A stretch of DNA of 64,000 nt from Gordionus sp. m RMFG-2023 (lineage: Eukaryota; Nematomorpha; Gordioida; Chordodea; Parachordodidae), in the NCBI RefSeq assembly GCF_954871325.1, contig NC_088777.1, forward strand, positions 6,177,366 to 6,241,365, in the 5' to 3' direction. Position numbers and translations under genes: made by a program. Below, one piece after another: positions 1 through 45,064 of the stretch. Position 1 is the stretch's first letter. The number at the start of each line of letters is the position of its first letter. The notes beneath the pieces were generated by a model. That model worked only from the letters and a program-made list of their open reading frames with translations, was not told the DNA's origin and made no database searches.

Positions 1-388
<388 letters not shown>

Positions 389-10330: not shown

Positions 10331-10354
10331 TAAAGTCTATAACTAAACCTCCAG
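10331..10354 (+). CDS. Micro-exon, 24 nt (VKSITKPP)
   Basis: Acceptor TTTATTACAG precedes and donor GTATAC follows. Read in phase 1 it gives VKSITKPP if the preceding exon ends in G. The downstream intron starts with the family-typical CCATTATG and TGATAAAT. This is the leftmost clear unit; a decayed neighbour lies at about 10271-10293. Confidence 0.5.
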
Positions 10355-11363
10355 GTATACCATTATGTTTTGATAAATCTATCAACTTGTTTAAAATTAT
10401 TAGTTTGATTGGAATAAAATTATTTAAAATTGTTTCTGCGCTTATTATATTTATCTTGTAATTTTTGTAGTTATCAGCAGAGCCGTGACTAAGGGAAGTC
10501 ATGTGAATGGGCAGCTCTCATAGAATTTAATCCCTAAACATGGTCTTTGTTGTTTTTTTGCCTCATGAAATGGTCTCTATTTTTAAAAAAATAATTTTTA
10601 TTTAATTAACCATTTAATTTAAATGAAAAAAAGCAATTGAAACTTCTAAAGGAATTCAATTTTAATATGGCTGAGTGATTTTATCTCAGTGTAAGGATTT
10701 AGGGGAACGGCAGATATTTCTTTTATCGTAGTACCAAGAGTATAATGTCTTAAATATAATTTTTAAGTTAATAATAATAATATAGTTTTTTTTAAGTAAA
10801 AATTAAAATTTCTTTTTTTTTTAAATGTAATTTTGCTTTTTTTTATATATAACAAAATATCGCCTCAGAACTAATAAAAAAAATAAACTATTTTGAAAAA
10901 ATAGTAATTTAAAGAAGCATATTGAAATAACAAAATCTTTGTGAATCATCAAGTTGAGTTTAATCGATAGTATTTGAAATTTTTATTTAATTTATAACCC
11001 TTCTTTTGGTCTGGTTTTACTATAATAACTGATGCTACAGAAGTACCTTTAGTGCAATGTTCCTTCATCTGCCAAAAATTTAAAAATTATAAGATCAATA
11101 CCAAAATATGCACAATACACATCACCTTAAATTCAAAATGAAGTCATATCTATTTTTTTGTATATATCCATAATTTATTACATTTAAAAGTTTTCAATAA
11201 AAATAATATAATTTTTTTTTATGAGTGTCTGACTATTTGTTTTATATGAAAAAATATTATACCTTCCATCCCAAATAAACACTGAAAATTACTAGCTATG
11301 CCTGATTATTAGAACAAATTTTACATATTTATAATGTACCTCAATTGTAAAAATAATTCACAG

Positions 11364-11411
11364 TTAGTACAACCACATCCACCGCAACAACCGAAGAACC
11401 TAATCATTCAG
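11364..11411 (+). CDS. Micro-exon, 48 nt (Thr-rich, ends EEPNHS)
   Basis: Acceptor AATTCACAG, donor GTATAT. Phase-1 reading is VSTTTSTATTEEPNHS, a mucin-like Thr/Ser stretch. The exon and its upstream intron (about 11200-11363) are a tandem duplicate of the unit ending at 11791. Its 3' end TAATCATTCAG is identical to that copy. Confidence 0.65.
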
Positions 11412-11734
11412 GTATATTATTATATGCATTAATATATAGTTGATCTGAGATATTTTATAACAATAATTTATTATTCTATATTTTGATGGTGAAAGTCATA
11501 AATATTTTTAATAAAAATAATATAAATTTTTTTTTATGAGTGTCTGACTACTTGTTTTAAATAAATAAATATTATACCTTCCCTCCCAAACCGTCCCACC
11601 TAATTATACCTTCCCTCCCAAACAAAACCCCCTACCCACCTAAAAATTACTAGCTATGCCTGGCTATTAGGATTTTTTTTAGATATTTATAATGTACCTC
11701 AATTGTAAAATATAATATTAAAATTTTATCACAG

Positions 11735-11791
11735 TTAGCATTACAACTACAACCACAGGCAACACCACAACCGAAGAACCTAATCATTCAG
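11735..11791 (+). CDS. Micro-exon, 57 nt (Thr-rich, ends EEPNHS)
   Basis: Acceptor TTTATCACAG, donor GTATAT. Phase-1 reading is VSITTTTTGNTTTEEPNHS. It differs from the 48-nt sister at 11364 by a net 9 nt, keeping the frame, while introns on both sides remain recognisably homologous. Frame-preserving length change in a duplicate suggests past selection on the coding frame. Confidence 0.65.
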
Positions 11792-12063
11792 GTATATCAT
11801 TACTACATGCATTAAGATATAGTTGATCTGAAATATTTTATAACCATAATTTATCATTCTAAATTTTGATGGGGGGAGTGAAGATTGGGAAAACATTTGA
11901 TCGTTAATAAATTTTTTTTTATTTTTTTTATTAACACTTAAATGGTAGCTAATTCTATTTTGCAAAAAAATAACTAATTCAACAAATTTGTAATTTATTT
12001 GAAAATTGGAAAAAATTAACTATTTCTAAAAATATTGTTCAAATTATATGTATTTAAATATAT

Positions 12064-12410
12064 TTTTTTTAAATTTGTTTGTATTTATATACTTCGAGGA
12101 GCCATTTTATTTATATTCAAATTAATAAAAACTTTTGCAATCCTGATTTTGGGATTCTCAATTGTTCTGGAGATAAGTCGAAATTTTGGTTAAAGTATGT
12201 TTCCATATCATATCGATTATCGAAATTTGCGAATTTAAAATTTGTAAGATCTTCTACTGGTTCGATTGTAGAAATTAAGAGGAACGCTCAGGGGATCAAG
12301 GAAATTGGCGTTTTATTTGTATCTCAAAAGTTCAGGATCGGAACGGTAATAGTTCCTGGGAATGAAACATAAATTTGAAATTTTAATGTCTATCGAGAAT
12401 CTCAGAAAAA
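12064..12410 (+). repeat. Duplicated block, copy 1
   Basis: About 330 bp is matched by 12770-13055 in direct orientation. Shared text includes TTTGTTTGTATTTATATAC, CGAGGAG, ATATC-TCGA-ATTTGC and GTTTTATTTGTATCTCAA. A 97-codon ORF (12079-12372) is open in this copy. The second copy has a different frame with stops, so coding status is doubtful. Confidence 0.6.
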
Positions 12411-12769
12411 TAAAAAGTTGAAAAATGCAATGGAAATTGAATTAACACACTTTTTTAATAGCGAAAAAGCTTAATAGAAAGCAAGAAAATACCTCACAGG
12501 GCTGATTAACTAATAAAAATCGTCAATAAAAATAATGGAAAAAATCTGATTAAAATATTAAAATCTAGTCAAAAAAGTAAAAAGTATTACTTAAAAAGGA
12601 AATATTTAAAATGGATTATAATATTTTTCGTCAAATTTAAAAATTTTTGTTTTTAATATTCTTTCATCTTTATCTTATTACAATTGCGGGAAATAAATTC
12701 AACCGAGCTAGAGTTTTACAAAAAACCGGCCGGTCAATGTTCATTTTTTTAAGCCCGACCTATAATATA

Positions 12770-13055
12770 TATTTTTTTAATTTGTTTGTATTTATATACC
12801 CTTTTCGAGGAGTATTTTTATCGAACTCATATCAATTGTCGAGATTTGCTAATTCAAAATTTGTAAATTTTTCGTTGATTCGAATGAAGAAATTAAGTGG
12901 AACACTTAAACAAAAGAATTTTTTTTAACATGAGATTGGGAAATAAGGAAATTGATGTTTTATTTGTATCTCAATTGAGGGTCAGAAGGGAAATAGATCC
13001 TAGGAATAAAACATAAATTCGAAATTTTTATGTCTACTAGAGTTCAGGAAAATAT
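12770..13055 (+). repeat. Duplicated block, copy 2
   Basis: This is the diverged direct copy of 12064-12410. It has lost the long frame seen in copy 1. Its right end runs into the hAT-like sequence beginning near 13046. Confidence 0.6.
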
Positions 13056-13580
13056 TTTTGAACCCGGGTTTGGTTCCGGTTTCAGCTCGGCTTTCAGAAT
13101 TTTTGAATTGATAAAAAAAATATTTTATATTTAAATCTTAATTAAAAATGAGACCTAAATTTGATATAAAAAATAAATTTTTTATTTTATTTATAAGCAA
13201 AATATATTTAAAAATACAATGCATAGTCATATATCAATTTTAGTAATTTTATTTAAACGTATTTCTTTAAATTAACAATATCCAATATATTACTTTGACT
13301 TGTTCACTTTCATTTTCCTCTAATTAATAATCTTTGTAAATAAGTTAAAAATTAAAAATAAATGGCGTAAATAAATTTAATTGTTTGAAATTTATTAACA
13401 ATCTAATAGGAATCTCTGAGAATAAATTTTATAAAATTTAAAAAGGAGTAAATGAATTAAGTTGTTAAAATTTATTAACACTTCACTATTGGAAATTTGA
13501 AAATATTATAAAATGTCAAGTAAATTATTAATATTTATATTTACAATCATACTATATTAATTAAAACAATACACTGGTTC
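13046..13580 (+). mobile_element. Truncated relative of the hAT element at 32852-34120
   Basis: It starts at GAACCCGGGTTTGGTTCCGG and follows the 32852 element collinearly through TTTTTGAATTGATAAAAAAA, AACAATATCCAATAT and AAAAATAAATGGCGTAAAT. It lacks the 556-bp insertion present there and both terminal repeats. It shows the uninterrupted state of that site. No coding potential was seen. Confidence 0.7.
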
Positions 13581-13715
13581 TAATTAACACACTTTTATTC
13601 ACATATATTGTGTTTTTAAAATCAAATTCTAATAAATATTAGATCAAAACATTTATTTTAAATAATTTTTATAATTTGGTTTAAATTATTTTCATAAATC
13701 GAAATATTTATATAG

Positions 13716-13748
13716 TAAACATGACATCAGGCGAACCTAAATATTGCG
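13716..13748 (+). CDS. Micro-exon, 33 nt (VNMTSGEPKYC)
   Basis: Acceptor TTTATATAG, donor GTATAT. Phase-1 reading is VNMTSGEPKYC with a terminal Cys. It lies only about 235 bp upstream of the candidate first exon at 13984, so it may belong to a preceding gene of the same type. Confidence 0.5.
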
Positions 13749-13983
13749 GTATATCAAATTTAAATTATATTGGTAAATTAAGGTTTGTTTAATTTTATAT
13801 GATCCTAAGCAAAGTTAATTATAGATTCAGAATTGTTAAGGGTTATTTTCTAGATAAAAATAATAATTTGAAGTACAGTATAATAGTAATAAAATACAAC
13901 TGTGACTATCAGACTTTTATAATATTATTCAATATTTAGTTTTGACATAATTCCTTTGTTATCTTTTGATAGATTTTCCTAAG

Positions 13984-14095
13984 ATGTGTGAATGTGATTA
14001 TATGATGATGTTACTTATTCAATTTATTCAATCAATAAATGGTTCAATATTAACCACTGAATGGGAAAATGACAGTAACCCCAATTTTTCAACAG
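13984..14095 (+). CDS. Candidate first exon with possible signal peptide
   Basis: An ATG-started frame of 37 codons plus one base ends in phase 1 at a good donor (CAACAG then GTATTT). It reads MCECDYMMMLLIQFIQSING followed by SILTTEWENDSNPNFST. The MMMLLIQFIQSING part is a short hydrophobic core of signal-peptide type; an internal Met start (MMMLL) is equally possible. Phase 1 at the donor matches every downstream micro-exon. As an internal phase-1 exon it would contain a stop, so only a first-exon reading works. The hydrophobic core is weak, and no promoter was identified in the AT-rich upstream DNA. Confidence 0.4.
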
Positions 14096-15126
14096 GTATT
14101 TTCTAATAATTTGTATTATAACCAAGTAGTCGTTTTTTTTAAATTACTATTTAATGATAAATAAAAATCTTAGGAGTTTGTTTATATGTATTATCAAAAA
14201 CTAAAATAACTTTCATAAGAAATTAATTTTATTAATGGAATATAAATCGTTTAAATAATTTTAAAATATTGTAGTTACGTTTACCTAAGTTGTAACATAT
14301 AAAGCAATTATATTAATTTCTAATTGATCTTTTTATAAATTAATAAATGCTGATTAAATTTCTCCAGCATCTTTAAGAATAACTTAAGTTAAAATGTTAC
14401 AACATAGGTCAAAGCAGGTAATACAATAACATATTTTTTATCTGAATTTGAAAAAAAATTTTGCTTTCATCAAGATTTTATTGAATAAAATTACAGTCAA
14501 AATATTTAGCTAAATATTTCATTAGTATGATTTTTCTCGTATATTCTTAATATAAAATAATATATAATCAAATGTAATTAATATTTAAGGTACTGTCAAA
14601 TGAATTTTATTATTTGGATAATCGCTCAATTATAATTATATCTAAAATAGAATTTATTGGAGAATTTTAAAACTGTGTGACTTTTATTTAGATTAATTTA
14701 ATTATTCGCAGCTTAATTATTTGGCATATAATATGTTATTTTTTCTCCAATTTATTCAAAGAAATTTCGGTAACTCTTTCATAAAATCTATTCTTTTGAT
14801 TCCTTAGAATTATTTATAGTAGATTTTTGATAGCAAAAACTGGTATCCTATTCAAGATGAATGGTATAAATAATTTGATAGAAAGTGGATCTAATTTTGG
14901 GTGAATATTTGGGCTTCTCTGAATAATATTTAATTAATCTCAGCTGAAATTTTTAATTATTTTGCATTTATTATAATTCAGGTATTATTGTTATTAATAT
15001 CAACTATATGACAAAATTTGACTAAAGCTTTTCTGAAAAAATTTCGGTGAAAAAGTTGACTGATAACTATTTCCTCTTTTTATTATATCATTATTATTAA
15101 ATCGAATACCGATCCTTTTATTATAG

Positions 15127-15165
15127 TAAAGCTAATCATTACAATCGGACAACCTCAAAATTTAG
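15127..15165 (+). CDS. Micro-exon, 39 nt (VKLIITIGQPQNL)
   Basis: Acceptor TTATTATAG, donor GTACAA. Phase-1 reading is VKLIITIGQPQNL, less Thr/Pro-rich than others but with the same CAACCTCAAAATTTAG ending type as the exon at 15943. Between 14096 and 15126 no further convincing exon was found. Confidence 0.5.
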
Positions 15166-15942
15166 GTACAAATTCTGATATTTTATTATAAATATGAAAT
15201 TAAAGTTAAAAAATAAAATATTGTAGTGGTTCATCCATGCTTTTATTTTTTTCCTTACTATTATTAAATCATAATAAAATTTTCATTTAAAAAATTTGAT
15301 TCATGCCAATCTCAATATACTATATTTTAAATTTATATATGTGTTCAAAAAAAATATATTAAAAATTATTAAGAGTTATTTAAATAAAGATAATGATTTA
15401 TAAAAATTTCCAATAAGTTAAAGGAATTTATTAGTCATTTTACTAAGATTATGTATATATAAATTAAAATTTTACTATGATCTCGTAGTTTACTTAAGAA
15501 AAGTTATATCTTTCACAAATCGCTTAGAGGATTTCCATAAAGTGCTGGTTTAATACATATTAAACTACTGTTTGGAAATATTATGGTTTGTCTTAATTAC
15601 TAATTTATTTTAATATATTTAACTATTTTGTTCATGGCCATATATTATTATTTTCATTTTGTATTTATAAATTAGCCTTCAAATAAAGAATACAACTTAT
15701 TTTTAATTATTTATTATATAATTTACTTGAAAATGTATTATAACCTTTGTATATACCATATCCTTAATATAAAATTTGGCATAAAAGGATTAAGAAAAAA
15801 AGAGTTATGAGGTGAATTGACAATGTTACTTATAAATAATGCTTTTTTGTTAAGTTATATGAAAAAATGTTGATTTACAAATATTTTGATTTATATTGTA
15901 ATCACAATAAATTAACATCAATATAATAACTAAAAATATTAG

Positions 15943-15975
15943 TAAACACTTTATGCCTTCAAACTCCAAATTTAG
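15943..15975 (+). CDS. Micro-exon, 33 nt (VNTLCLQTPNL)
   Basis: Acceptor AAAATATTAG, donor GTAAAT. Phase-1 reading is VNTLCLQTPNL. Acceptor context and start (TAAACACT) resemble the 33-nt exon at 36270. The intron start TTATTATGTT is family-typical. Confidence 0.5.
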
Positions 15976-16346
15976 GTAAATTATTATGTTTTTTGTTTAT
16001 TTTCTATACATGTTTAATAGTATGTAATCAATACCTTAATTAATTTATCGAGGTTATTTAAAAAGTTTACAAAACTATTTGGATTAAAATAGATTATAGA
16101 TAGAAATTTAAACTATTAAAACATAGTCCATACAATTTAATGTTGCTCTGTGACTTTTTTTTTCTTACCGCTAGATAATAAGATATGTTTATTTTTATTA
16201 AATATTTCCCATATTTTATTTATAAAAGTTTATAATTATTCGGTAGTTATAAATTAAAATAATTTTTAAAAAACTATTAATAATATTTTAAATAATTATA
16301 TTTATAATAGAATAAGATATTTTAATTGTGTAATAATATAAAATAG

Positions 16347-16373: not shown

Positions 16374-16389
16374 ACATTGTAAAATAACA

Positions 16390-16716
16390 TGAATATGTGC
16401 CGGTGAATGATAAATAAGATTTAATAACTTTATCAAATAAAAAATATATTTATTAACTTTATTGACTAATTTCTTTTTCTTTTCTTAAGGTATTTATACG
16501 TTTTATAAAATATAAATTAGAATATAAAAAATAAAATAATATAAAAAAAGTAAAGTTAAACCGAAAGTTATATAAATAAGGTTACGCAAAATAATAAGTA
16601 ATATAAGTTGAATTACAAAAATAAAAAGTTAAGTTGAAAAGATAAATTTGAATTCATAAAATGTAATATAAAAATAAAATTAGATTACAAAAATATATAA
16701 TTATAATAACGCAACA
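16390..16716 (-). repeat. 3' LTR of gypsy element I
   Basis: This 327-bp LTR runs TGAATATGTGCC to ATAACGCAACA on the plus strand. It matches 21704-22030 with no difference noticed, and has TG/CA ends. The adjacent TTCTCCCTCTTC (16717-16728) is the polypurine tract read on the other strand. The stretch 16729-17122 is 3' untranslated internal sequence. Confidence 0.9.
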
Positions 16717-17122
16717 TTCTCCCTCTTCTGATAATTTCATCGGAGAAGACACAGAGAGTTTGTTGTCCAAGTGGTTTATCGTTTTGGTAATCAAGTTGTA
16801 TCACAAATCATCATAACGTTGGCTTGTCCAATCGTTGGTTTGTATAAATCGATTTTGCACGTTGGTTTGTTTAAATCGCAAGCTTGATATCCATATCGTA
16901 AATTGTCTCCATTAATCATAGCTTGTTTGATAGTACTCAATTGTTAATTGTCATTTTTCCGAAATTGTTATTATCATAAATAAGTTGCGAATAAGAAATA
17001 ATAGTTCATCATAAGAATAAATGAAGAATGATAAATCAATAAGATTGTTATATTTTTAGCGTTTTAATATAAGCGTTTTAATATTTAATTTAGTTTATGC
17101 AATTTAATATTTATTTTATATT

Positions 17123-17410
17123 TTAAGTTACATAGTCTTTTAAATAAGCAGGTTTATTTTTAATTCGCACAGGTCTAGAGATAGGTGTTATATCGTTATT
17201 ATCAGTAATTTTTATATTTTTGTCCATACTTCCCTCCTTAAAAGAATCCTTAGAGTCATTATTAATAATTGTGTTCAAACAGTTTCTAATTCTTATTTGA
17301 TCTAAATGTCTCCTCAAAATACCTTTCTCAGTCTTAATTTGGAACATCATATCACTTTCTTTATGTGTGATCATACCATTTATCATCACCTTGTATTTTA
17401 TACCAAACAA
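17123..17410 (-). pseudogene. Gypsy I pol, extreme C-terminus (third frame)
   Basis: The reading FQIKTEKGILRRHLDQIRIR matches the common end of gypsy integrases (R-x-H-x-D-Q-L-R), so this is the out-of-frame tail of the pol protein. A frameshift near 17370-17400 separates it from the reading ending DDKWYDHT at 17361. The rest is polar and ends before the 3' LTR region. Confidence 0.7.
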
Positions 17411-17640
17411 AATCTCCTACGTTAAAAGTTCTATTTCGTGGTAAAGTGACGTTTATCTTATTCTTATTTTCCTCCATCGGTTTTAATAAGTCCCATTTAA
17501 TTCTAATATCACGATTAAACATTCTCTGTGATGGTGTAACTCCTGTAGTATCATTACGCGTATTTCTGTAATTAAGTAAAAATTTGCTAAGTGCGATATC
17601 TGGGTCTACTTTAATATTCCTTTTCATGTGTTTTAAACGT
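17361..17640 (-). pseudogene. Gypsy I integrase C-terminal part (second frame)
   Basis: LKHMKRNIKVDPDIALSKFL followed by LNYRNTRNDTTGVTPSQRMF continues the integrase after the main ORF stops at 17611. One net base is missing or extra near 17630-17645. It includes the post-catalytic segment LNYRNTxNxTTGxTPxxxMF and the GDFVWYKI motif of the C-terminal domain. Because the LTRs are identical, this frameshift is either very recent, a sequencing error or a programmed event. Confidence 0.75.
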
Positions 17641-20600
17641 TCTAACCATGCGTTCAACCTGGCCATTAGATTGCTGGTGATAAGCAGATGTAAGCACATG
17701 TTTAATACCAAAATTGTTGCAAAATTTTTCAAAATCGTTACTCGTAAAGTTAGTACCGTTATCAGTAACTATAGTTTCAGGTATTCCGTATAGCGAAATA
17801 GTTTTAAAGATTTCTTTTAAAGTAACATTAGTCGTAATATTTTTAACAGGAATAATAATTGGAAATTTGCTATAGGCATCGACTATTATCAACCAATTTT
17901 TTGTGAAAAACGGACCCGCATAATCTATATGTATCCTTTCAAACGGTTTAGTTGCCGAAACCCATGGTTTTTGTATCTTTATAGGATTATCGTGATATAT
18001 ATTACAATCGTCACAACTTTTCACTTCCGTAACAATATCATTATTTATGCCAGGCCACCACATGTAATCTTTGGCTAAGGATTTGATTTTTCCTGCTCCC
18101 AAGTGACCTTCATGTAATGACTGTAGTATAGTTTTTCTCATGGAAGACGGAATTATAATTTTATTGCTTTTGTAAAGACAATCTTTAATTATACTTAATT
18201 CCAATTCAATGTTTTTATAAATATTATTCATTATAGGTCTGTTGTTATTAATATCATTTATGACTTGTTTTAATTCCGTATCTTTCAAAGTTTCATCACG
18301 AATTTGATCAAAGTTAATAGGTAAATCCTCATATTCATTTATAATGGTTACATTTTCAATAGTTTCATCACGACATACTTGTGGTAATCTTGAAAGGCAA
18401 TCAGGAACAACATTATATTTACCGGCTTTATACTTTATATAAAAATCATATCCTCCTAATGTAATATTCCACTTCTGGAGTCTTAACGACATGGTGCTAT
18501 TATCCTTGAGACCCTTGGTGAAGATGTGAACTAGAGGCTTATGGTCAGTAATAATTGTAAATTTTGTGCCGATTAAATATTCCTGAAATCTCTTTATGGC
18601 AAACATTATAGCGAGAGCCTCACGCTCAATATTGGTATAATTCATTTCAGATTTTAATAAAGTTCTCGACGCGAAAGCTATAGGTTTTTCTTTACCATCT
18701 TTTTCAATATGAAATAGTACAGCTCCTAAACCACATTTTGATGCGTCAGTGGCTATCCCTATAGGTAATTCAGGGTTAAAATATGTCAAAGCAGGTGGAA
18801 GACTAATTAACTTCTTTAGATCATTAAAACTTTTAGAGTGTTCTAGATTCCAAGCCCATTTTTCTTTATTGACAATCTTATAAAGAGGATCGGCAATTTC
18901 CGCAAAATTGTTCAAAAATTTTCTATAGTAGCCAGCCATTCCCAGAAATGTTGATAATTCAGCAGCTGATTTTGGTTCTGGCATATTAATTATTGCTTCA
19001 ATTTTGTCGTGATTAGCATGAATCCCCTTAGCGTCAATATCATGACCCAGGAACCTCACTTTGTTTTTAAAGAACACACTTTTATTAAAGTTAGGTATTA
19101 GCCCAAACGATGATATTCTATCGAACACTTTTTTTATGTTGTTTAGGTGGGCTTCATCGTTTTTTCCAGTTATAAGTAAATCATCAATATAAAATATAAC
19201 GTCATCCATGTCCCCGAAGATTTGATCCATAATCTGTTGAAAAATTGCAGATGAGGTCTTAAGCCCAAAAGGAAGTCTAGTAAATTGGTAATATCCCTTA
19301 TGCGTAGATATGGTTAAAATATTTCTGCAACTTTTATCAATTGGAATCTGTAAGAAAGCATTTTTAAAGTCAATCTTCGTAAATTTCTTTCCTTCCGAAA
19401 GTTTAGCAATTAGATCATTAATTCGTGGTAGAGGGTATCTAAAGTCTTCTAGAGCTGGGTTTACAGTATCCTTAAAATCAGCGCAAAGCCTAATGCTCCC
19501 ATCTTCTTTATAGACAGCAGTAACAGGACTTGCCCATCGGACATCATTCACCGGCTCAATAATTTTATCATGTATCCATTTTTTAAGTTCATTACTAACA
19601 AGATTAATTTTTGAATAAGGAATACGTCTAGGCGGTATAATTTTAGGTTGGGCATCATTTCTTAAATGTAACTTGACACTTGCTTTGTTGATTGGCCCAT
19701 TAGTTAATTTCGATTCACACTCTTTAATCAATTTTTTTATTTCATCTTCGTAATTAGTGTCAATATTTGCTATAAATTTATTTAAAATATTTTTGAAAGC
19801 ATTGATCCACATACGTCCCAACAAGGCATTTTTACTTGATTCAACCACTACCGCTTGTAAATATTTGGACATACCATCATAAGTCACTTTAACTTGAGTA
19901 GTTCCTATGATTTTGATTAAATTCCCGTCATAAGCAGTGAGTTGTAGCTCGGATTTCTTAAGATCTCTAATACCAAGTTTTTTAGCCAGACCATGAGGTA
20001 TGATAGTGTATTTGGATCCAGTGTCCACCTGCATACAAGTAACAACATCGTTCACTTTTACAGTGGTCATAAATGCGTTATCATTGTCATTAATCACGTC
20101 ACCAGATAAATTGTTGACATTAAAATCATTATCATCTTTGTTCTTTGTAGAATCAACTTTCTCTTCAATAATTTCTTCAATATTCATGTTGTAATCATTA
20201 TTGTATTGTATTTGCTTTTTATTATTTTCGTCGCCATTTCTATAATTATTTGAGTTGTTATTATATTGTATTTGCTTTCTCTGAATATTACCATTACCTC
20301 TATAATTATTTGAGTTGTTGTTATATTGTATTTGCTTTCTCTGATACTTATCATTACCTCTATAATTATCTGAGTTGTTGTAATAAGATTGGTAATTATT
20401 ACGATTTACGTCACCGTATTGAATTTGTTTTCTTTGATTATAATCATACCATGTATTATTTCTACCAAAATTCGATTGATTATTATTATTATTATAGCGA
20501 TAATTGTTATAGTTATAATTGTTATAATTATCGTGGTATCGCGAATTATTATTACCATAATTGTATCTAAAATTATTATTGTAATTCCCATTTCTATATC

Positions 20601-21213
20601 TATTATCATAATTATTTCTAAAATTATTTCGAAAATTATTATCATTTCTACTGCAAAAATTTTTATCTTTATCGGATTTTTTATCATTATTCATATAACT
20701 TATATCATTATCCTCAGACTTAATATTACTAGAGTCCAGTTTCACCCCTAATTCCACCATCTGATTCAATGTAAGGTCAAAATTTTTGGAAAATTTATAT
20801 TTAATTTTATCGTTTAAAGTAGATGTCCGTAATTTCTCTTTTAATCTACTATCGTCCAAAAAATTACATTTCTTATGAAGTTTCGATACTCTAATGTACC
20901 ATAACATAAAACTTTCTGATGAGTTTTGTTGAAGAAGATTAAACTTATTAATTAAAGTATTTAAATTTAGCGCTGGTAAAAGATAGGTTAACTTTTTAAT
21001 CACAATTTTAAGATCTAAAATATCGGTATCAGAACAAATTGCCTTAATGTCGTCAAAAACTTCGTCTGATAAATTATTAAGCAAAGTATTAATTTTAATA
21101 GAGTCCGATAATGTACTGGTCGAAAAGTAATTTAATATTCTATCTAAATAAATTTCAGTAAGAGGACCCACTAACTTAGGGATCTTATGTGTAAATTCTT
21201 GTTTAATTTCCAT
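17611..21213 (-). CDS. Gypsy I gag-pol polyprotein (1200 codons)
   Basis: One long frame encodes Gag, protease, reverse transcriptase, RNase H and integrase without a frameshift between gag and pol. Gag (about residues 1-370) lacks a CCHC zinc knuckle and instead has an Asn/Tyr/Arg-rich region (about 195-345) with QRKQIQYNN-type repeats, possibly the RNA-binding part. The protease motif VDTGS lies near 396. RT has KIDFKNAFLQIPI, LPFGLKTSS and the YIDD box near 676. RNase H has ATDASKCGLGAVLFH near 820. The integrase zinc finger HEGHLGAGK...CDDC runs about 1033-1068, followed by the DDE residues in HIDYAG (about 1098), VTDNGTNF (about 1153) and GQVERM (about 1184). The frame stops just after the catalytic Glu; the rest of integrase is in two other frames. 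The start Met at 21213 lies about 490 bp from the LTR. Confidence 0.93.
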   Translation of the reverse strand: MEIKQEFTHKIPKLVGPLTEIYLDRILNYFSTSTLSDSIKINTLLNNLSDEVFDDIKAICSDTDILDLKIVIKKLTYLLPALNLNTLINKFNLLQQNSSESFMLWYIRVSKLHKKCNFLDDSRLKEKLRTSTLNDKIKYKFSKNFDLTLNQMVELGVKLDSSNIKSEDNDISYMNNDKKSDKDKNFCSRNDNNFRNNFRNNYDNRYRNGNYNNNFRYNYGNNNSRYHDNYNNYNYNNYRYNNNNNQSNFGRNNTWYDYNQRKQIQYGDVNRNNYQSYYNNSDNYRGNDKYQRKQIQYNNNSNNYRGNGNIQRKQIQYNNNSNNYRNGDENNKKQIQYNNDYNMNIEEIIEEKVDSTKNKDDNDFNVNNLSGDVINDNDNAFMTTVKVNDVVTCMQVDTGSKYTIIPHGLAKKLGIRDLKKSELQLTAYDGNLIKIIGTTQVKVTYDGMSKYLQAVVVESSKNALLGRMWINAFKNILNKFIANIDTNYEDEIKKLIKECESKLTNGPINKASVKLHLRNDAQPKIIPPRRIPYSKINLVSNELKKWIHDKIIEPVNDVRWASPVTAVYKEDGSIRLCADFKDTVNPALEDFRYPLPRINDLIAKLSEGKKFTKIDFKNAFLQIPIDKSCRNILTISTHKGYYQFTRLPFGLKTSSAIFQQIMDQIFGDMDDVIFYIDDLLITGKNDEAHLNNIKKVFDRISSFGLIPNFNKSVFFKNKVRFLGHDIDAKGIHANHDKIEAIINMPEPKSAAELSTFLGMAGYYRKFLNNFAEIADPLYKIVNKEKWAWNLEHSKSFNDLKKLISLPPALTYFNPELPIGIATDASKCGLGAVLFHIEKDGKEKPIAFASRTLLKSEMNYTNIEREALAIMFAIKRFQEYLIGTKFTIITDHKPLVHIFTKGLKDNSTMSLRLQKWNITLGGYDFYIKYKAGKYNVVPDCLSRLPQVCRDETIENVTIINEYEDLPINFDQIRDETLKDTELKQVINDINNNRPIMNNIYKNIELELSIIKDCLYKSNKIIIPSSMRKTILQSLHEGHLGAGKIKSLAKDYMWWPGINNDIVTEVKSCDDCNIYHDNPIKIQKPWVSATKPFERIHIDYAGPFFTKNWLIIVDAYSKFPIIIPVKNITTNVTLKEIFKTISLYGIPETIVTDNGTNFTSNDFEKFCNNFGIKHVLTSAYHQQSNGQVERMVRTFKTHEKEY

Positions 21214-21289
21214 ATTTAATTAATAAGACACATATATAAGCAATTATAATATTTATTATTTTATCAATTCAAATTTTTGGTATAGCTAT

Positions 21290-21526
21290 TCATGTTTTGG
21301 TAAATATACAGATTAATTCAATGAAATCATTGTCATTATAAATATAATGTTTCCCATTTAAAAATTCGAAACAATTAATCATGTCTCTTAAGTTCATGAA
21401 TTCAAACAGCACGTCTTCCGTACCGTCTATCCTATAAAAGTCGACATCGGTATTATAGGTTAACTCAAATAAAATATCGTAGACAGAGATTTGGTGGGGT
21501 ATATTAAGTAGTTTGAAGGCAAACAT
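21290..21526 (-). other. Small ORF in gypsy I 5' leader
   Basis: A 78-codon ORF (MFAFKLLNIPHQISVYDILF...) lies between the 5' LTR and gag-pol. Its reading is protein-like, with acidic and aromatic residues, but has no recognisable domain. It could be a small accessory protein, part of an upstream gag exon, or chance. No relative is visible in element II. Confidence 0.3.
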
Positions 21527-21703
21527 AGTTGATGAAAATAATTTTTAAATGACTTACCCTTTTTATTTTTCCATCTTATATAGAATTATTTGTACCATTT
21601 TATAATTTTTTTTTTATTAACCAATTTTTACAAAAGAAAAAAAAATTTTATTTTTAAAAAAATTTTCCATGAGGCGAGTTTCTTATGCCAACACTGGAGG
21701 ACA

Positions 21704-22030
21704 TGAATATGTGCCGGTGAATGATAAATAAGATTTAATAACTTTATCAAATAAAAAATATATTTATTAACTTTATTGACTAATTTCTTTTTCTTTTCTT
21801 AAGGTATTTATACGTTTTATAAAATATAAATTAGAATATAAAAAATAAAATAATATAAAAAAAGTAAAGTTAAACCGAAAGTTATATAAATAAGGTTACG
21901 CAAAATAATAAGTAATATAAGTTGAATTACAAAAATAAAAAGTTAAGTTGAAAAGATAAATTTGAATTCATAAAATGTAATATAAAAATAAAATTAGATT
22001 ACAAAAATATATAATTATAATAACGCAACA
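21704..22030 (-). repeat. 5' LTR of gypsy element I, shared with a partial second copy
   Basis: This is the second 327-bp LTR, identical in reading to 16390-16716. In element orientation it is the 5' LTR. Unusually, its outer side is not host flank but the polypurine tract and 3' internal sequence of another copy. Confidence 0.9.
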
Positions 22031-22474: not shown

Positions 22475-22501
22475 AAAATGCTTCAGTTTCTCAAACTCCA
22501 G
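22475..22501 (+). CDS. Micro-exon, 27 nt (ENASVSQTP)
   Basis: Acceptor AAATTTTAG, donor GTATAT. Phase-1 reading is ENASVSQTP. It is closely related to the exon at 26206 (ENTSVPPPN), and introns on both sides are homologous. Both lie in the interval between the gypsy I insertion and 26.4 kb. Confidence 0.6.
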
Positions 22502-23052: not shown

Positions 23053-23067
23053 TTCCTAAACCTACAG
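23053..23067 (+). CDS. Micro-exon, 15 nt (VPKPT)
   Basis: Acceptor ACAATTCAG, donor GTATAT. It appears to be a shortened member of the 27-nt class: the AG now used lies inside the ancestral exon (ATTCAG, compare ACTTCAG in the 26206 exon). Loss of the upstream AG shortens it by a multiple of three. Confidence 0.45.
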
Positions 23068-25564: not shown

Positions 25565-25579
25565 TTTCTCAACCTCCAG
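25565..25579 (+). CDS. Micro-exon, 15 nt (VSQPP), shortened from 27
   Basis: Acceptor ATTGCAG, donor GTATGT. The ancestral 27-nt acceptor TTTTAG has become TTTTGG (at 25552), leaving the internal CAG as the usable site. Either length keeps phase 1. The downstream intron matches the family. Confidence 0.5.
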
Positions 25580-26205: not shown

Positions 26206-26232
26206 AAAACACTTCAGTTCCTCCACCTAACG
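26206..26232 (+). CDS. Micro-exon, 27 nt (ENTSVPPPN)
   Basis: Acceptor AAATTTTAG, donor GTAAAT. Phase-1 reading is ENTSVPPPN. Sister of 22475-22501. From 26400 to 27450 only AT-rich sequence with a G homopolymer at about 26889 is seen. Confidence 0.6.
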
Positions 26233-32138: not shown

Positions 32139-32162
32139 ATACATCATTCACTAAACCACCAA
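32139..32162 (+). pseudogene. Decayed micro-exon, 24 nt, donor AT
   Basis: Acceptor AAATTTTAG is good. The segment encodes DTSFTKPP in phase 1, but the donor reads ATATAT instead of GTATAT. The intron start TTATTATC is family-like. Confidence 0.45.
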
Positions 32163-32414: not shown

Positions 32415-32441
32415 TAAGCATAGCGCTTCCTCTACCTCTAA
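32415..32441 (+). CDS. Micro-exon, 27 nt, GC donor (VSIALPLPL)
   Basis: Acceptor AAATTTAAG, donor GCATAT. Phase-1 reading is VSIALPLPL. GC donors are minor but functional in many eukaryotes; here the GC could also be decay of GT. Confidence 0.45.
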
Positions 32442-35743: not shown

Positions 35744-35770
35744 CAACAACATCAGTCTCTATACCTCCAA
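35744..35770 (+). CDS. Micro-exon, 27 nt (ATTSVSIPP)
   Basis: Acceptor GAATTTTAG, donor GTATAT. Phase-1 reading is ATTSVSIPP. It ends in A rather than G, so the split codon with the next exon changes. First of the dense cluster 35.7-39.1 kb. Confidence 0.65.
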
Positions 35771-35911: not shown

Positions 35912-35938
35912 TAACCACATCACTGCCTCCACAACCAT
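35912..35938 (+). CDS. Micro-exon, 27 nt (VTTSLPPQP)
   Basis: Acceptor AAATTTAAG, donor GTATAT. Phase-1 reading is VTTSLPPQP. It lies 168 bp after the previous unit, the shortest spacing class. Confidence 0.65.
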
Positions 35939-36106: not shown

Positions 36107-36139
36107 CAAATACTGGTTGTCCTCTACCTCCAGACAAAG
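36107..36139 (+). CDS. Micro-exon, 33 nt (ANTGCPLPPDK)
   Basis: Acceptor AATTATAG, donor GTATGA. Phase-1 reading is ANTGCPLPPDK, including a Cys. One of two adjacent Cys-bearing 33-nt exons. Confidence 0.65.
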
Positions 36140-36269: not shown

Positions 36270-36302
36270 TTAACACTCCTTGCCCTCAACCTGAAACCCC
36301 AG
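36270..36302 (+). CDS. Micro-exon, 33 nt (VNTPCPQPETP)
   Basis: Acceptor AAATATTAG, donor GTATGT (near-consensus). Phase-1 reading is VNTPCPQPETP. A decayed sister is at 37459-37491. Confidence 0.7.
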
Positions 36303-36806: not shown

Positions 36807-36833
36807 TAAGGACATCACGCGCTCAACCTAAAA
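36807..36833 (+). pseudogene. Decayed micro-exon, donor lost
   Basis: AATTTAAG is followed by TAAGGACATCACGCGCTCAA and CCTAAA, then TATTAT. The GT donor is gone, but position and length match the 27-nt class. Confidence 0.45.
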
Positions 36834-37052: not shown

Positions 37053-37079
37053 AAACAACATCAGTCCCTATATCTCCAA
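37053..37079 (+). CDS. Micro-exon, 27 nt (ETTSVPISP)
   Basis: Acceptor ACTTTAAG, donor GTATAT. Phase-1 reading is ETTSVPISP. The flanking block 36.9-37.1 kb is a near copy of 35.6-35.8 kb, down to CGATCTATTCACTTCATATA-like text upstream. Confidence 0.65.
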
Positions 37080-37458: not shown

Positions 37459-37491
37459 TTAACATTCCATGATTTCTACCTGAGACATCCA
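37459..37491 (+). pseudogene. Decayed micro-exon, 33-nt class, donor lost
   Basis: AATATTAG precedes TTAACATTCCATGATTTCTA and CCTGAGACATCCA, matching the 36270 exon, but ATTTAT stands where GTATGT was. Confidence 0.5.
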
Positions 37492-37719
37492 ATTTATTAT
37501 TAATACGTGACAAATTCAAAATTTAGTAAACGATTGGCTATCTTTATATTTTAGAACTTGTCATTATTTTATATTCTTTGAATGTATAATTTTTTAAGCT
37601 TTTCAAAATTTTCCAGAAATTTAATTCTTGAACGATTTATATCTATTCATTAGTGTAAAGAAATATATGTAATCTATATATATAAAGCAAACAATTAAAT
37701 ATAATAACCAAAATTTAAG

Positions 37720-37746
37720 TAACCACATCAGTCCCCATTCCTCCAA
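37720..37746 (+). CDS. Micro-exon, 27 nt (VTTSVPIPP)
   Basis: Acceptor AAATTTAAG, donor GTATAT. Phase-1 reading is VTTSVPIPP, close to the family consensus. Confidence 0.65.
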
Positions 37747-37911: not shown

Positions 37912-37938
37912 TAGCTACATCCCTTCTTATACCTTCAA
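37912..37938 (+). pseudogene. Decayed micro-exon, donor AT
   Basis: TAGCTACATCCCTTCTTATA followed by CCTTCAA is followed by ATATAT, and the acceptor has gained a base (TTTAGG). The phase-1 reading VATSLLIPS is still visible. Confidence 0.45.
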
Positions 37939-38378: not shown

Positions 38379-38405
38379 TAACTACATCACTTCCTCCACC
38401 TCAAA
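38379..38405 (+). CDS. Micro-exon, 27 nt (VTTSLPPPQ)
   Basis: Acceptor AATTTAAG, donor GTATAT. Phase-1 reading is VTTSLPPPQ. The adjacent unit at 38549 is nearly identical over exon and introns, indicating recent duplication. Confidence 0.7.
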
Positions 38406-38548
38406 GTATATTATTAAATTTTTTTTATTTTCAAAAAATGTTTAAAATCACTTGGTGTTAAAGATTTATATTTTATTCCACTTTAAAATCTAATCGACAT
38501 ATATTATTCAACAAATAATTACATATGATAACGAAAATTAAATTTAAG

Positions 38549-38575
38549 TAACTACATCAATCCCTCCACCTTCAA
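38549..38575 (+). CDS. Micro-exon, 27 nt (VTTSIPPPS)
   Basis: Acceptor AATTTAAG, donor GTATAA. Phase-1 reading is VTTSIPPPS. It is the close sister of 38379, 170 bp apart. Confidence 0.7.
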
Positions 38576-39094: not shown

Positions 39095-39112
39095 CTAACA
39101 CAACAATTTCAG
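39095..39112 (+). CDS. Possible micro-exon, 18 nt, GC donor (ANTTIS)
   Basis: Acceptor CTTATAG, donor GCTTAT. Phase-1 reading is ANTTIS. Short and with a non-GT donor, so less certain. Confidence 0.35.
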
Positions 39113-39998: not shown

Positions 39999-40010
39999 CA
40001 GGGGCGTAGC
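39999..40010. repeat. Lone hAT-type terminus CAGGGGCGTAGC
   Basis: This 12-mer resembles the CAGTGGCGTAGC end of the elements at 47720 and 53260. No partner end was found nearby, so it is a solo remnant or chance. Nothing else is recognisable in 39113-40930. Confidence 0.3.
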
Positions 40011-40939
40011 ATGTAAAATTTCTAAAAGGCGATTTATTGTACTCAAATTATTATTGATTAAATTTAATTTTTAAAATTAATGTTACATATTAAAATTCAA
40101 ATCGTATTTATATATATAATATAACATTATATTTATATTTCAATTATATAAACATAAAAATAATAATATCTGGCTAAACATCGATCAAATCAATAGATTT
40201 ATAACCATAGTCATTTTTTAAAATAAAACTTATTTACAGATAATTTTCTGCCTATTTTATAGGGATTATTCATTATATTTATACCAAATAATGTAATAAA
40301 ATAATGCATTCATATAAATGAGGAGGTTTTTAATTTAATTAATTTTTTAAAAAATAACCCTTTTACATATCCCATTTTTTGATAGTTGGATTGAGCATTA
40401 ATAATTTAAGTTATTCTTTAAAAAATATATGAAAAGGCACCTTAAATTATAACATGTAATAAATAATGTTAAAATATAGCCACTTATTGGAGGGTAGGTA
40501 TAGGTTTACTTACCAGGGTGTTTCCATGTCCTATCAAGACGCGATTAGCGACACTCCTTGAGCCTATATTTCAAAATTGTTTCAGAATATTTAAATTAGA
40601 ATTCTACGATCGTTGCAATTTTTAATCAGACATGTAAAAATATAGATCATGATAGAAATGCGGTAACAGATTCAAATGGCAATTCAATTAGTTAAATTAA
40701 ATCTTAAATATTCCTATCCAAGCTAATATAATAACTAAAAATCCAGAGAAAGATAGCAAAATTTTACTCGGCCAAAGAATATAGGTGCCCAAATAAATTA
40801 TAAAGATTTATTCAACATAGGCATAGCAAGGAATTTTCTAGAGAGATAGAAATAGACTTTTCCTATGAATTTTATTCACGATCTTTAAGTCTTCATATTT
40901 CAGACAGTTGGTTTAAGTTACCTTAATTATAGTGAATAC

Positions 40940-40972
40940 TTAACACTACATATCCCCAACCACAACACCCAG
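40940..40972 (+). pseudogene. Decayed micro-exon, 33-nt class
   Basis: TTAACACTACATATCCCCAA and CCACAACACCCAG match the 33-nt class, but the acceptor reads ATAC and the donor is GC. The following intron text (TATTTATTGATAAATTC) is family-typical. Confidence 0.45.
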
Positions 40973-42247
40973 GCATACTATATTTATTGATAAATTCAAA
41001 TTTTTTTATAAAAATAAAATAAAATTTTATAATAGATTTGTTGTATATCTTACAAATATTGAAAATCTTTTATGTTTCTTAGTCAATAACATTATCATAT
41101 TTAAGAAATCTTCAGAAATAACAAAGGGTTTTGAAATTTAATATAGATTATCTAAGCCTAAATGTAGGCCAAATATTATGTAATTATATCGAAATATTAA
41201 AAACTGCATTGAAAATAATAAAATCCATAACTCAAAAGCCTTTTGAACTATGAGATATGGAAGATCTCATTTTAGTAATGTTGCCCTTTAAATCAATCAT
41301 GTTAAAGATTAGAACACATTCCCATAGTAGGAGACCAGGGATCTTATGAGCCCGAGGTTCGTATGAGCTTTAAGGTATTCTAGAGTTCTCAACTCTAAGG
41401 GTTAATTTTTTAATTAAATATGTACTACTACATTTTGCATATGAGGCTATAATTATTTTTAAATCGGATCACATATTTCTATAACACAATATATAATACA
41501 TATCCTCAAAAGTAACTTTTTAAAATTCTGCAATTTATCAAAAATAAAAAATAATAAGTTTTAATTATCCAATAACTATCTTATATATTTTATATAAAAT
41601 TACTCATTATTTTAACAAAAAATTTAAACTACCAAATGGAAAGGTTTTGAGGGTTTGGGGCCACGTTTCAAAGATTCATATGAGCTTTTAGAGCGTTATT
41701 TTTAAAATTTATGCTCATTAAAACTTGAATATAGTATGAAATCATATTAGAAAGAATAAACAACTAATAAATAATGAGATCATTAATAAATTTAATGAAA
41801 ATATGTCCTTGCTAGGCGTTAGTAAGTAAAAAAACTTAGGTAATGTAACAATAATAAGATATAAATCAAGAATAACGAAACAACATAAATATTGAAGTAA
41901 ATGAAAGAAAAATATATAAATTATCCAATAAATGCATTTAAAAATATTGTTGGTACATGCGTCTTTTCGCATGGATTCTATTGCAATTTTAATCCATTCT
42001 TTATTTGTTTAAATTTTTAATATACTACATATACTTTACGAAAAATACTAGAGAATATACGAATATGCCAAAATTAACCCCTTTTATGACACAATTTAGA
42101 TTATGAAATAATCTAATATAGTCACAATTGTGTGAAGTTTTAAAAAATTCAAAATTAGTTGGCAATTTATGAAAAATGTATGGAGTTATCCCCTGTCTTT
42201 TGCCAGAGTACAAGTCGATTTCGTGAGACTCGTTAATTAGAAAATAG

Positions 42248-42470
42248 TTTTAAAAGCCCGATTTGAATCGATTTTTAAAAACAGCTATATAAAGATTACA
42301 TTCAATATAATATTATATATCCCTTGAGATTTCACAAATAATTGTTCTAGTCTTTGTGCCAAATTTGAGCAAAATCTCTAGGTTTTTATAATATTTATGG
42401 TTATAATCTTAATAGGACCGATTTTAAAAATAGACCTGAATCGGGCTTCTTAACAACACTAGAAATTATG
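42248..42470. mobile_element. MITE with GTTGTTAAAC-type ends, copy 3
   Basis: Left AGTTTTAAAAGCCCGATTTG and TTTTTAAAAACAGC; right is the inverse of AGTGTTGTTAAGAAGCCCGA and TTTTTAAAAT. The core shares CAAAATCTCTAG with copy 2. It is bounded by ordinary AT-rich DNA. Nothing convincing is present from 42480 to 43440. Confidence 0.6.
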
Positions 42471-43441
42471 GTTACTTCTCATCGAGAGTTTTTTTTTAAA
42501 TCGGCAAAAATATAACTAATTTCAAATAATAATATTGCAGAATTTGAAAATTACTTCAAAAATAAATTTTCACTTTTTGGATATGAATAATGAGCCGCTT
42601 TTTAAATAATTGAGATTGTAAATAATGAAAAGCTATTACCCCGAATATCTACCATCCTCTTTCTTATGAATCGAGATTTACAGAGAATTAAAAATTATAA
42701 TAAATTAAGTATTATTAATGATTTTTTATTCGCATATGGCAATACGATGTTTCAACGTGACTATCTTTTTATTGATAATCTTCAAACCCGTTTGCTAAAT
42801 TAAGACATGAAGGGCTTATAGATACCGTATTTGATAAATTGAAAATTAAACTTTCATTACGATACTGTCTATTAGATGTTTTAGATACGAGATTTTTAAG
42901 TTGACTGCTAAGATAGTTACTAGATCAATCTAATTTTACGATGTATTTAATATTCTTCTAAAGGAATGAAAAAGAAAATTTATTAAAACACCTAATTAAT
43001 TGCTTTATGACCAGTAAGGACATACAGACAGAAAAATGAAGAGAATGTCGGTTGAGGTTCCTCCAAAGAGTCCGATGTACCTCAAATTGATATTCAATTT
43101 TTAATCCTTTCTTTGAACTACATAAAGCTCATTCACCCTATCTAACGAGGATGAAAACCGGAAAGACTTTCTTGGGTGGATAATGTTATATTTTGAATAT
43201 TTTTTATTACCTTTTTAGATTCGCGTTATTTTATTGTGATCATTTGAATATTAATTTTATCATTTTGTTTAAGAGTTCCCTTATTCTTATTTAATTATAT
43301 CAAATTGTTATTATATATTTAGGAAATTATATATTTTTGTATAAATCAGACATATATAACAAAATTAGTTTCAATTCATATATTTCTTTAACATAAAAAT
43401 AATCATGATATATTATTTAGCAAATAAAATATAGAAAATAG

Positions 43442-43463
43442 TAATAAACCCTTTGACACCTAG
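43442..43463 (+). pseudogene. Decayed micro-exon
   Basis: AAAATAG, then TAATAAACCCTTTGACACCTAG, then GATATTATGG. Both its length (22 nt) and donor are off, but the following TCAATGATAAATTCA is family intron text. Confidence 0.4.
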
Positions 43464-43684
43464 GATATTATGGTCAATGATAAATTCAAAACTTGATTAA
43501 AATATTTGATAATCTCAAACTAAATTAATTTAAAGAGTAACTATTCAAAATAGTTTGTGTAATGTTACTATTGGGAAAAGATAATTTTTGATATTCATAG
43601 ATCAAAAACAGTTTATTTTATATTCGACTTTTAATATAATCCTGATATATTAATTATTTAATATAATAATAACGAAAATTTTAG

Positions 43685-43711
43685 TAACCACAACACTCAC
43701 TCAACCTCCAG
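43685..43711 (+). CDS. Micro-exon, 27 nt (VTTTLTQPP)
   Basis: Acceptor AAATTTTAG, donor GTACAC. Phase-1 reading is VTTTLTQPP. Both introns are typical. Confidence 0.65.
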
Positions 43712-43888
43712 GTACACCATTATATTTAATAATAAATTTTCTTAATTTAATTATATTAAATTTTTTTATTATGCTATTCTTGTAGATGATAATCTCATTT
43801 TTATTGAATCATAATATGTTAATTTTTAATTTAATAATATTTATAATGTAATCACATGAACTAAGAAATAATTAATATAAATACCAGG

Positions 43889-43915
43889 TCAACACTTAGA
43901 GTATTTAAACCTTTT
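43889..43915 (+). pseudogene. Decayed micro-exon next to ACCAGG
   Basis: TCAACACTTAGAGTATTTAA followed by ACCTTTT precedes GTAATT. The acceptor ACCAGG is displaced by one base relative to a 27-nt exon. Related to 45035. Confidence 0.4.
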
Positions 43916-44758
43916 GTAATTTTATGATAAATTTAAGAATATTCAAAATCCACAAAGGCTATTAAAAAGAAAAAATAATTTCGATACATATTCCTCTAAT
44001 AACATAATATATATGATGTTTAACTTAAGTCGTTTATGCTCATGAAATATGGTATGTTTCGATGATAGCAGATGTCATAGTTTAAATCGCACAATAAATA
44101 ATTTTGTATTGATATGTTATATCATACAATATCATATTTTTAATGGTAATTGGTATAAGGTTCCAATAATAGACCATGAATAAAAAATCCCGTAAAATCA
44201 GCTGGAAAAACGCTATTTATATTTATTTGTTCTGAACCTTATGTGATTGGAAAAATTTTAATAGGCTTCCTTTATTTACTATATTATTAAATAAGAAATG
44301 AAAATCATATTTGTCTTAAACTACACCTTTTATATTTTATCTAAAGCACTTTTTCATATATGTATGACTTATGCTTTAAATAAACTTTTATAAGGTTCTT
44401 TTAAGTATAATTCACTCAGAATATTGCGATATTTTATCCCAGATTTTTAAATGATTTGAAGAGGTTCGTAAAGGTCAAAATTTAAAACATATTGGCCGTT
44501 TTAATAAAAAGCTATTTATACTTGGCTTTAATTATTACCTATTGATTTTGAAATATAGAATACTCTAGACGTATTCTGGAAGCAAATATTTTTGCAAACT
44601 AAAATATTTTTAAAAAATCTATTAAAAATGTTTTATGCAATGTTTTTTGTTGCACAATGTGATATTCTATTGTAAGATTGAAAAATATTGCTTGCAAAAT
44701 AATTCTTTATATAATCTATATAATAATTAGAAAATAATATAATATACAATAATTTTAG

Positions 44759-44785
44759 TAACCACTTCTGTCTCTCGACCTCCAG
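44759..44785 (+). CDS. Micro-exon, 27 nt (VTTSVSRPP)
   Basis: Acceptor AATTTTAG, donor GTTTAT. Phase-1 reading is VTTSVSRPP. Last intact unit on the right side. Confidence 0.6.
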
Positions 44786-45034
44786 GTTTATTTTAATGTT
44801 TAATAACAAATTTCCCAATATTTTTATATTATATATGTCAGCCTCATCTTAAACTAAATAAATTTTTAAAATGAAATTTTAAAACTATCTCTATTTAAGA
44901 TTATTATTGCAAATTCTATTCTCTCTATAATTTTTTTTTTCGGTCATGGGTTACTTTATTTGAATATTTTTTGATTCTTATAATATTACATGTATATTAT
45001 AATGATATGTATTAAAAATAACTGAATATCATAG

Positions 45035-45064
45035 TCACGACACGCAGAGTACCTAAACCTCCAA
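45035..45064 (+). pseudogene. Decayed micro-exon, 30 nt, donor AT
   Basis: Acceptor ATATCATAG. Phase-1 reading is VTTRRVPKPP, followed by ATATAT instead of GTATAT. Rightmost recognisable member. From 45070 to 46850 no further unit or gene was seen. Confidence 0.45.

Follow-up and report, generated by a model that had tools for sequence, protein, structure and literature searches.

A probable micro-exon mucin gene family in the hairworm Gordionus, with reading frame and splice sites guarded

The question raised by this locus is whether a tandem run of very short segments, each bounded by AG and GT, belongs to a working gene of unusual design or to a non-coding repeat. The segments lie in a 64,000-nucleotide stretch of Gordionus sp. 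m RMFG-2023 (Nematomorpha), positions 6177366–6241365 of the forward strand of contig NC_088777.1 (C3 in the following), which was analysed as a whole and is called the window; coordinates without a contig name refer to it. The assembly comprises 287 Mb in 267 contigs, and a genome of 288 Mb is given for G. montsenyensis and Gordius aquaticus (PMC11603191). A preliminary description, made from the letters of the window, had proposed a coding gene resembling the micro-exon genes (MEGs) of schistosomes at 10331–45064. The micro-exon array observed there is real. With a probability of about 0.88 the window holds a nearly whole plus-strand micro-exon mucin gene of ~62 kb, a member of a small hairworm family, whose frame and splice sites are guarded. 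The gene does not stop at the limits first given; it extends from ~0.46 to 62.96 kb and ends in a constrained C-terminus of larger exons. It is composed of a decayed signal-peptide exon (~461–521), 22 intact symmetric phase 1-1 exons (9308–44785) and four C-terminal exons with the stop at 62962. Joined from 9308 to 62962, the 26 exons give 1208 nt coding for 402 residues plus stop and are open throughout, the first split codon being completed with G by assumption. Twenty-one of these 26 modelled coding exons are symmetric and 15–57 nt long and account for 633 of the 1208 coding nt; the 123-nt core exon and the 84-nt C-terminal exon 1 are symmetric as well. Ser, Thr and Pro together make up 47.6% of the 252-residue micro-exon part of the chain.

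For comparison we used four further family members on C3, namely paralog P (6.483–6.425 Mb, minus strand), T (6.513–6.495 Mb), V (6.584–6.558 Mb) and L49 (6.100–6.162 Mb), and the NCBI protein models P0001 and P0002. Within 10331–45064 the window contains 21 intact AG-exon-GT segments. Each has a length divisible by 3 and is open in phase 1-1; 20 measure 15–57 nt and one measures 123 nt. The 22nd intact exon lies just upstream. A first pass by regular expression recovered eight named 27-nt exons, and the list of 22 was fixed after the paralog comparison, some exons being listed with conservation and openness in view. All eight peptides named in the preliminary description were present in this search. 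Its count of 23 segments of 15–57 nt, every one open and a multiple of three, stood in kind and had to be changed in detail: one segment has 123 nt, and "every one" holds only with decayed units excluded; inclusion of a unit with a gc donor at 32415–32441 would suit the count of 23. In phase 1 all 22 exons are open, compared with 11 and 13 in the two alternative frames and with a mean of 9.9 and a maximum of 19 of 22 for random segments of the same lengths (3000 draws).

All array exons lie on the plus strand. The first two are GNGTIKFPRYS (33 nt, 9308–9340), conserved in P and T, and VKSITKPP (24 nt, 10331–10354), which is 100% identical in P where the alignment stands at 76%. They are followed by VSTTTSTATTEEPNHS (48 nt, 11364–11411), which is part of P0001 and whose copies elsewhere have 54–57 nt with differences in multiples of 3, by VSITTTTTGNTTTEEPNHS (57 nt, 11735–11791), also in P0001 and 54 nt long in one P copy, and by VNMTSGEPKYC (33 nt, 13716–13748), whose P copies have 33 and 30 nt. 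The last of these replaced an 18-nt exon at 13731, since the upstream AG is kept in both P copies and in T. The symmetric core exon of 123 nt (DFPKMCECDY...NFST, 13973–14095) again occurs in P0001, and VKLIITIGQPQNL (39 nt, 15127–15165) is conserved in P, T, V and L49. Comparison of the paralogs underlies VNTLCLQTPNL (33 nt, 15943–15975), ENASVSQTP (27 nt, 22475–22501), the two 15-nt exons VPKPT (23053–23067) and VSQPP (25565–25579), ENTSVPPPN (27 nt, 26206–26232) and ATTSVSIPP (27 nt, 35744–35770). VTTSLPPQP (27 nt, 35912–35938) and the 33-nt exons ANTGCPLPPDK (36107–36139) and VNTPCPQPETP (36270–36302) come from the list of intact exons. Six exons of 27 nt complete the array: ETTSVPISP (37053–37079), VTTSVPIPP (37720–37746), VTTSLPPPQ (38379–38405), VTTSIPPPS (38549–38575), VTTTLTQPP (43685–43711) and VTTSVSRPP (44759–44785).

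A profile built from eight units gave 19 matches with E<0.001 in the window, all on the plus strand, and 33 matches in 200 kb at C3:6.40–6.60 Mb, all on the minus strand. Repeat searches traced the recurrent text around the exons, which had been noticed from the start, to diverged duplication of exon plus intron, mostly at 65–85% identity. A composite repeat peptide had no match in the genome, a result that says nothing either way; every unit forms an exon of its own. Copies are present at about nine other loci. Searching the genome with the DNA of a single unit returned 21 matches, clustered at C3:6.13, 6.20 (the window), 6.45–6.47, 6.50 and 6.62 Mb. Paralog P is collinear with the window from 8.5 to 63 kb, with 97% and 95% identity over 22–38 kb and ~67–85% over most of the rest; it contains extra internal copies of the 11–26 kb block, and its 5' blocks match 388–3688 of the window in another order. 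These extra copies and the repeat searches agree with the earlier proposal that the repertoire grows by duplication of exon plus intron. The 123-nt core exon has 11 genomic copies, eight at C3:6.04–6.62 Mb (including two in P), a further two at C3:51.55–51.59 Mb and one on contig C1 at 51.63 Mb. All are free of stops over the matched stretch, the C1 copy is without both splice sites, and one of the copies near C3:51.5 Mb has 138 nt. Seeded from the 22 window exons, 85 intact exons were obtained (22 in the window, 31 in P, 12 in T, 12 in V and 8 in the 10 kb of L49 that were covered), with 77 distinct sequences among them and lengths of 27 nt in 23 and 33 nt in 24. Three protein searches returned only Gordionus proteins, with no other nematomorph among them, one search having scored 8000 candidates only, with sensitivity limited by the repeats and uncertain coverage of nematomorph proteomes in the database. 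No Pfam or NCBIfam match was obtained, the best Protein Data Bank matches had E 1.2, and the predicted structure of P0002 was poor (two sequences in the alignment, mean predicted local distance difference test score 42.8), so that no fold is claimed.

In order to measure constraint, the 22 window exons were set against their copies in alignments below 90% identity, giving 82 comparisons; exons 35912, 36107 and 36270 have no diverged copy to compare. The acceptor AG was kept in 67 of the 82, the donor (GT or GC) in 75 and both in 64, compared with 61% for AG and 64% for GT in introns. Length modulo 3 and freedom from stops were kept in all 64 copies with both splice sites and also in the other 18, and the five length changes among the 64 are all multiples of 3. 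In the control, which consisted of flank intervals of the same length that are open in the window (5331 comparisons), length modulo 3 was kept in 51.5% and openness in 37.3%. Frame, openness and splice sites are thus kept far above the level of the flanks, which bears out the coding, MEG-like nature of the array. Across 779 array codons, with expected changes computed from intron substitution rates, we counted 302 nonsynonymous changes (311 expected), 71 synonymous changes (92 expected) and 5 stop-making changes (23 expected), which corresponds to a ratio of 1.26. The frame is thus guarded, whereas the amino acids are unguarded or their change is even mildly favoured. For the 123-nt core exon the ratio of nonsynonymous to synonymous divergence (dN/dS) was determined for the 36 pairs among nine copies, the 138-nt copy and the C1 copy being dropped; it exceeded 1 in 10 pairs, all between closer copies, lay between 0.20 and 0.72 in 24 and was undefined in 2.

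The start of the gene was sought as a hydrophobic exon beginning with ATG and ending in a phase-1 donor, compared between loci, hydrophobicity being judged by eye. A single candidate signal exon of 20 codons resulted, reading MFFDHILLLTVWIAFIELSQ in P and having relatives in T and V; a genome-wide search found five copies, V not among them. Besides P, T and V, the exon is kept at C3:6099939. The window copy (461–521, plus strand; genome match C3:6177826–6177879) aligns to the intact exons in P and T and is decayed: its hydrophobic frame is recognisable and its phase-1 donor reads gtaatt, and it has no ATG. The secreted Thr/Ser/Pro-rich product first proposed is therefore upheld by the signal-peptide exon of the relatives and not by the window copy. 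An earlier candidate signal peptide at 8988–9150 was rejected, as indels shift its frame in P. In P (C3:6481734), T (C3:6511344) and V (C3:6583973), all on the minus strand, a T-rich tract with AAG or GAG stands immediately before the ATG of the signal exon, an arrangement like a 3' splice site; a trans-spliced leader, or an intron of the 5' untranslated region ending at the start codon, could account for this text. Just upstream of the decayed exon, 1–392 of the window is a long and nearly perfect (CTAT)98 microsatellite. The block 388–706 with the signal exon precedes the block 2552–3688 in the window and follows it in P and T, and owing to this difference in order the 5' end of the window looks rearranged.

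The four C-terminal exons follow the array on the plus strand. Exon 1 (57078–57161, 84 nt, phase 1-1, beginning PSNCRVLVVIPGTLG) is homologous to residues of P0001 and P0002, and exon 2 (62089–62164, 76 nt) is homologous to NCBI proteins. Exon 3 (62244–62460, 217 nt) differs between window and P at a proportion of 0.063 of nonsynonymous (pN) and 0.235 of synonymous sites (pS), hence pN/pS 0.27. The last exon (62888–62962) ends in GCLEMDMNTMCNGLFVTSVDSDTD and the stop TAG at 62960–62962, 24 residues with which P0002 ends as well. Exon 3 is found in three loci, each time downstream of an array and on the same strand, with a further weak 34-residue match at C3:5.23 Mb; exon 1 is found in two loci and was not found in P. 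Because P0002 holds both array and C-terminus, we assign them to one gene. A last exon at 45324 had been considered and was dropped once P0002 showed the C-terminus. Paralog P (C3:6425–6426 kb) is without part of the window's last exon, and there the NCBI model P0003 has a different C-terminus.

The NCBI models offer a comparison with predictions made beforehand, as eight intact micro-exons had been predicted in 10 kb of L49 before these sequences were fetched. Six of the eight stand in both P0001 and P0002, in the same order and with ends that agree as far as the protein shows; an isoleucine after one shared exon is explained by that exon ending in A before GT. P0001, annotated as "mucin-17-like", continues into the window exons 11364, 11735 and 13973. 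P0002 begins where the L49 core exon ends and continues via micro-exons into the C-terminal part as one protein.

A number of results weigh against the reading as a micro-exon mucin gene. Identity is equal in exons and flanks (P 0.841 versus 0.848, T 0.838 versus 0.825, V 0.772 versus 0.767, L49 0.814 versus 0.811), and of 18 single BLAST gaps within exons only 9 are multiples of 3 (118 of 631 in flanks). The preliminary description had named as tests that exons evolve differently from their flanks and that exon indels are multiples of three: the first difference is lacking in identity and present in frame, openness and splice sites, and the second expectation agrees with all five exon length changes and not with half of the gaps. 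The nonsynonymous ratio is uneven by locus (P 1.25, T 2.38, V 0.71, L49 0.91); the comparisons share ancestry, and some exons were listed for conservation or openness, so that the values are not clean P-values. Furthermore, the window signal exon lacks its ATG, the NCBI models omit 19 of the 22 window exons, and two of the eight predicted L49 micro-exons are in neither P0001 nor P0002. P0001 joins two loci and has a long, unrelated N-terminus without signal peptide, for which reason it looks partial or fused. Equal identity and the flanking text shared by units are also what a diverged intronic repeat with coincidental AG/GT edges would produce. Such a non-coding satellite is largely refuted by the conservation of frame, splice sites and freedom from stops, by the signal and C-terminal exons and by the NCBI proteins, and we consider it very improbable.

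A further question is whether the window copy itself still works, and the missing start codon is only one reason to ask. At least five units are decayed: 32139–32162 has at as donor in the window and is an intact 24-nt exon (DTSITKPP) in P, 36807–36832 has lost donor and frame, 37459–37493, related to 36270–36302, has an in-frame stop and no donor, 37912–37938 has lost both splice sites, and 45035–45064 has lost a donor that is GT in P. This last unit is a case of the loss by splice-site decay that had been suggested. The 27-nt unit at 32415–32441 is open, and its use is uncertain with the gc donor. Together with the long terminal repeat (LTR) element in one intron, these features would suit a pseudogene or decaying locus among working relatives, whose openness stems from recent loss or from gene conversion with P over the 22–38 kb of 95–97% identity. 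However, 22 array exons and four C-terminal exons are open up to the stop, C-terminal exon 3 seems constrained between window and P (which may reflect P alone), and P0001 contains three window exons. Decay also occurs among intact units elsewhere. Before overlaps were merged, 96 placements without intact structure were counted, 67 of which keep frame and openness; after merging at a stricter E-value, the window and P have 6 each and T and L49 one each, and in three of these a GC donor or a changed acceptor is the sole departure. We regard a decaying window copy as a definite possibility, short of even odds.

Given a functional micro-exon family, it has to be asked how its exons are used. Copies of one phase 1-1 exon are all symmetric by descent, so the common phase could be mere copying history in an ordinary mucin gene that includes every array exon constitutively, with no combinatorial splicing. 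Tropoelastin and the PEVK region of titin, vertebrate structural proteins with larger exons, likewise have symmetric phase 1-1 exon arrays and are not known to have an immune role. On the other hand, the L49 core exon is used differently, in frame, by P0001 and P0002, and two intact exons are absent from both models, although these are predictions of uncertain support. Constitutive use comes near to even odds without reaching them. At the other extreme, neighbouring loci might share exons: as the array exons and C-terminal exon 1 are all phase 1-1, transcripts that start upstream, at the locus near C3:6.10 Mb with its intact signal exon, could splice in frame into window exons ~78 kb on, and the start-less window copy would be the exon reservoir of one super-gene. 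P0001 has such a cross-locus join, from C-terminal exon 1 of the upstream locus to the exons 11364, 11735 and 13973 of the window, in a model of uncertain support that has no signal exon; we think this arrangement unlikely.

For the micro-exon mucin family we propose the following course. In an intact member, exon 1, ending in phase 1, would encode the signal peptide of 20 residues, so that the product is secreted. The symmetric phase 1-1 array would follow, mostly of 27- or 33-nt exons that each encode a Thr/Ser/Pro unit of 9–11 residues, with the 123-nt core exon, and would yield a mucin-like stretch, probably disordered and O-glycosylated; a constrained part of ~150 residues would come from the four C-terminal exons. 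The symmetry of all array exons means that duplication together with an intron, loss through decay of splice sites and skipping would each leave the frame unchanged. Amino acids of the array would drift at an approximately neutral rate or slightly faster, with frame, splice sites and C-terminal part retained. Expression, alternative splicing, disorder and glycosylation of the product are inferred here; its most likely role would be that of a variable coat, secreted or on the surface, where the worm meets its arthropod host.

The surroundings of the array are not the transposon desert described at first. An LTR element of Ty3/gypsy type occupies 16387–22000 on the minus strand within an intron; its two repeats of 300 nt are reported to be 100% alike, and it has an open frame of 1202 amino acids carrying protease, reverse transcriptase, RNase H and integrase domains. 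Paralog P is without it and its alignment is continuous across the site, so the insertion is probably young. A second retrotransposon-like region, apparently more decayed as judged by eye, lies at 47000–51200 on the minus strand.

The description of the system as unrecognised is right in one respect and not in another: the gene is already partly annotated ("mucin-17-like"), and no description of a hairworm micro-exon mucin family was found in the open-access literature, most subscription journals and preprints being outside that scope. Judged by titles, open-access work on nematomorph micro-exons, nematomorph mucins and convergent symmetrical micro-exons held nothing on point. The family is real, partly annotated already and most likely convergent with schistosome systems. 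As the NCBI annotation holds only fragments of it, more such genes may hide in AT-rich parasite genomes. In one part of the protein selection seems to retain frame and splice sites and hardly the amino acids, next to another part that is constrained, which makes the family an instructive case.

Among known systems the closest in design are the polymorphic mucins SmPoMuc, for which a 22-residue signal peptide, 9-residue repeats each encoded by one 27-bp exon within a repeat of ~1 kb, and a 234-residue C-terminal region are described; the 6–9 clustered gene copies, some truncated, have intron parts that are >94% identical and KS/KN, as stated there, mostly above 1 (PMC2576457). The hairworm genes share the signal peptide (20 residues), the 27-bp exon encoding a 9-residue Ser/Thr/Pro repeat in a genomic unit, the conserved 3' part and the several clustered copies with truncated ones among them. 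They differ in belonging to another phylum, in strongly diverged units, in exons of 15–57 nt plus one of 123 nt, in a shorter C-terminal part (~150 residues) and in an array without the KS/KN pattern of the SmPoMuc coding sequences. No hammerhead ribozyme was found in the window (no Rfam match at gathering score), and protein and Pfam searches, of limited sensitivity for repeats and without a head-to-head comparison with MEG or SmPoMuc sequences, gave no homology to either. MEGs, for their part, have very small symmetric exons, a signal peptide and high dN/dS in the mature part and are apparently "restricted to platyhelminths" (PMC4350168). Mostly very small symmetric exons, a signal peptide (in the hairworm paralogs), multiple copies, transposon insertions in the loci and a high dN/dS of the mature part are common to both (PMC4350168, PMC10526429), whereas the hairworm lies outside the platyhelminths and its genes are dominated by a repeated mucin unit. 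A looser parallel is given by the bicycle genes of aphids, fast-evolving putative effectors, many with a signal sequence, whose many small internal exons nearly all start at codon position 2 (PMC9168663), as the hairworm exons do; these are insect genes with a CYC motif in place of a mucin repeat, likened here by description only. Within the reach of these searches, the hairworm architecture is apparently convergent with the schistosome systems. A family with one exon per mucin repeat in an arthropod-parasitic hairworm, in a second phylum, would then mean that such a design has evolved more than once among parasites.

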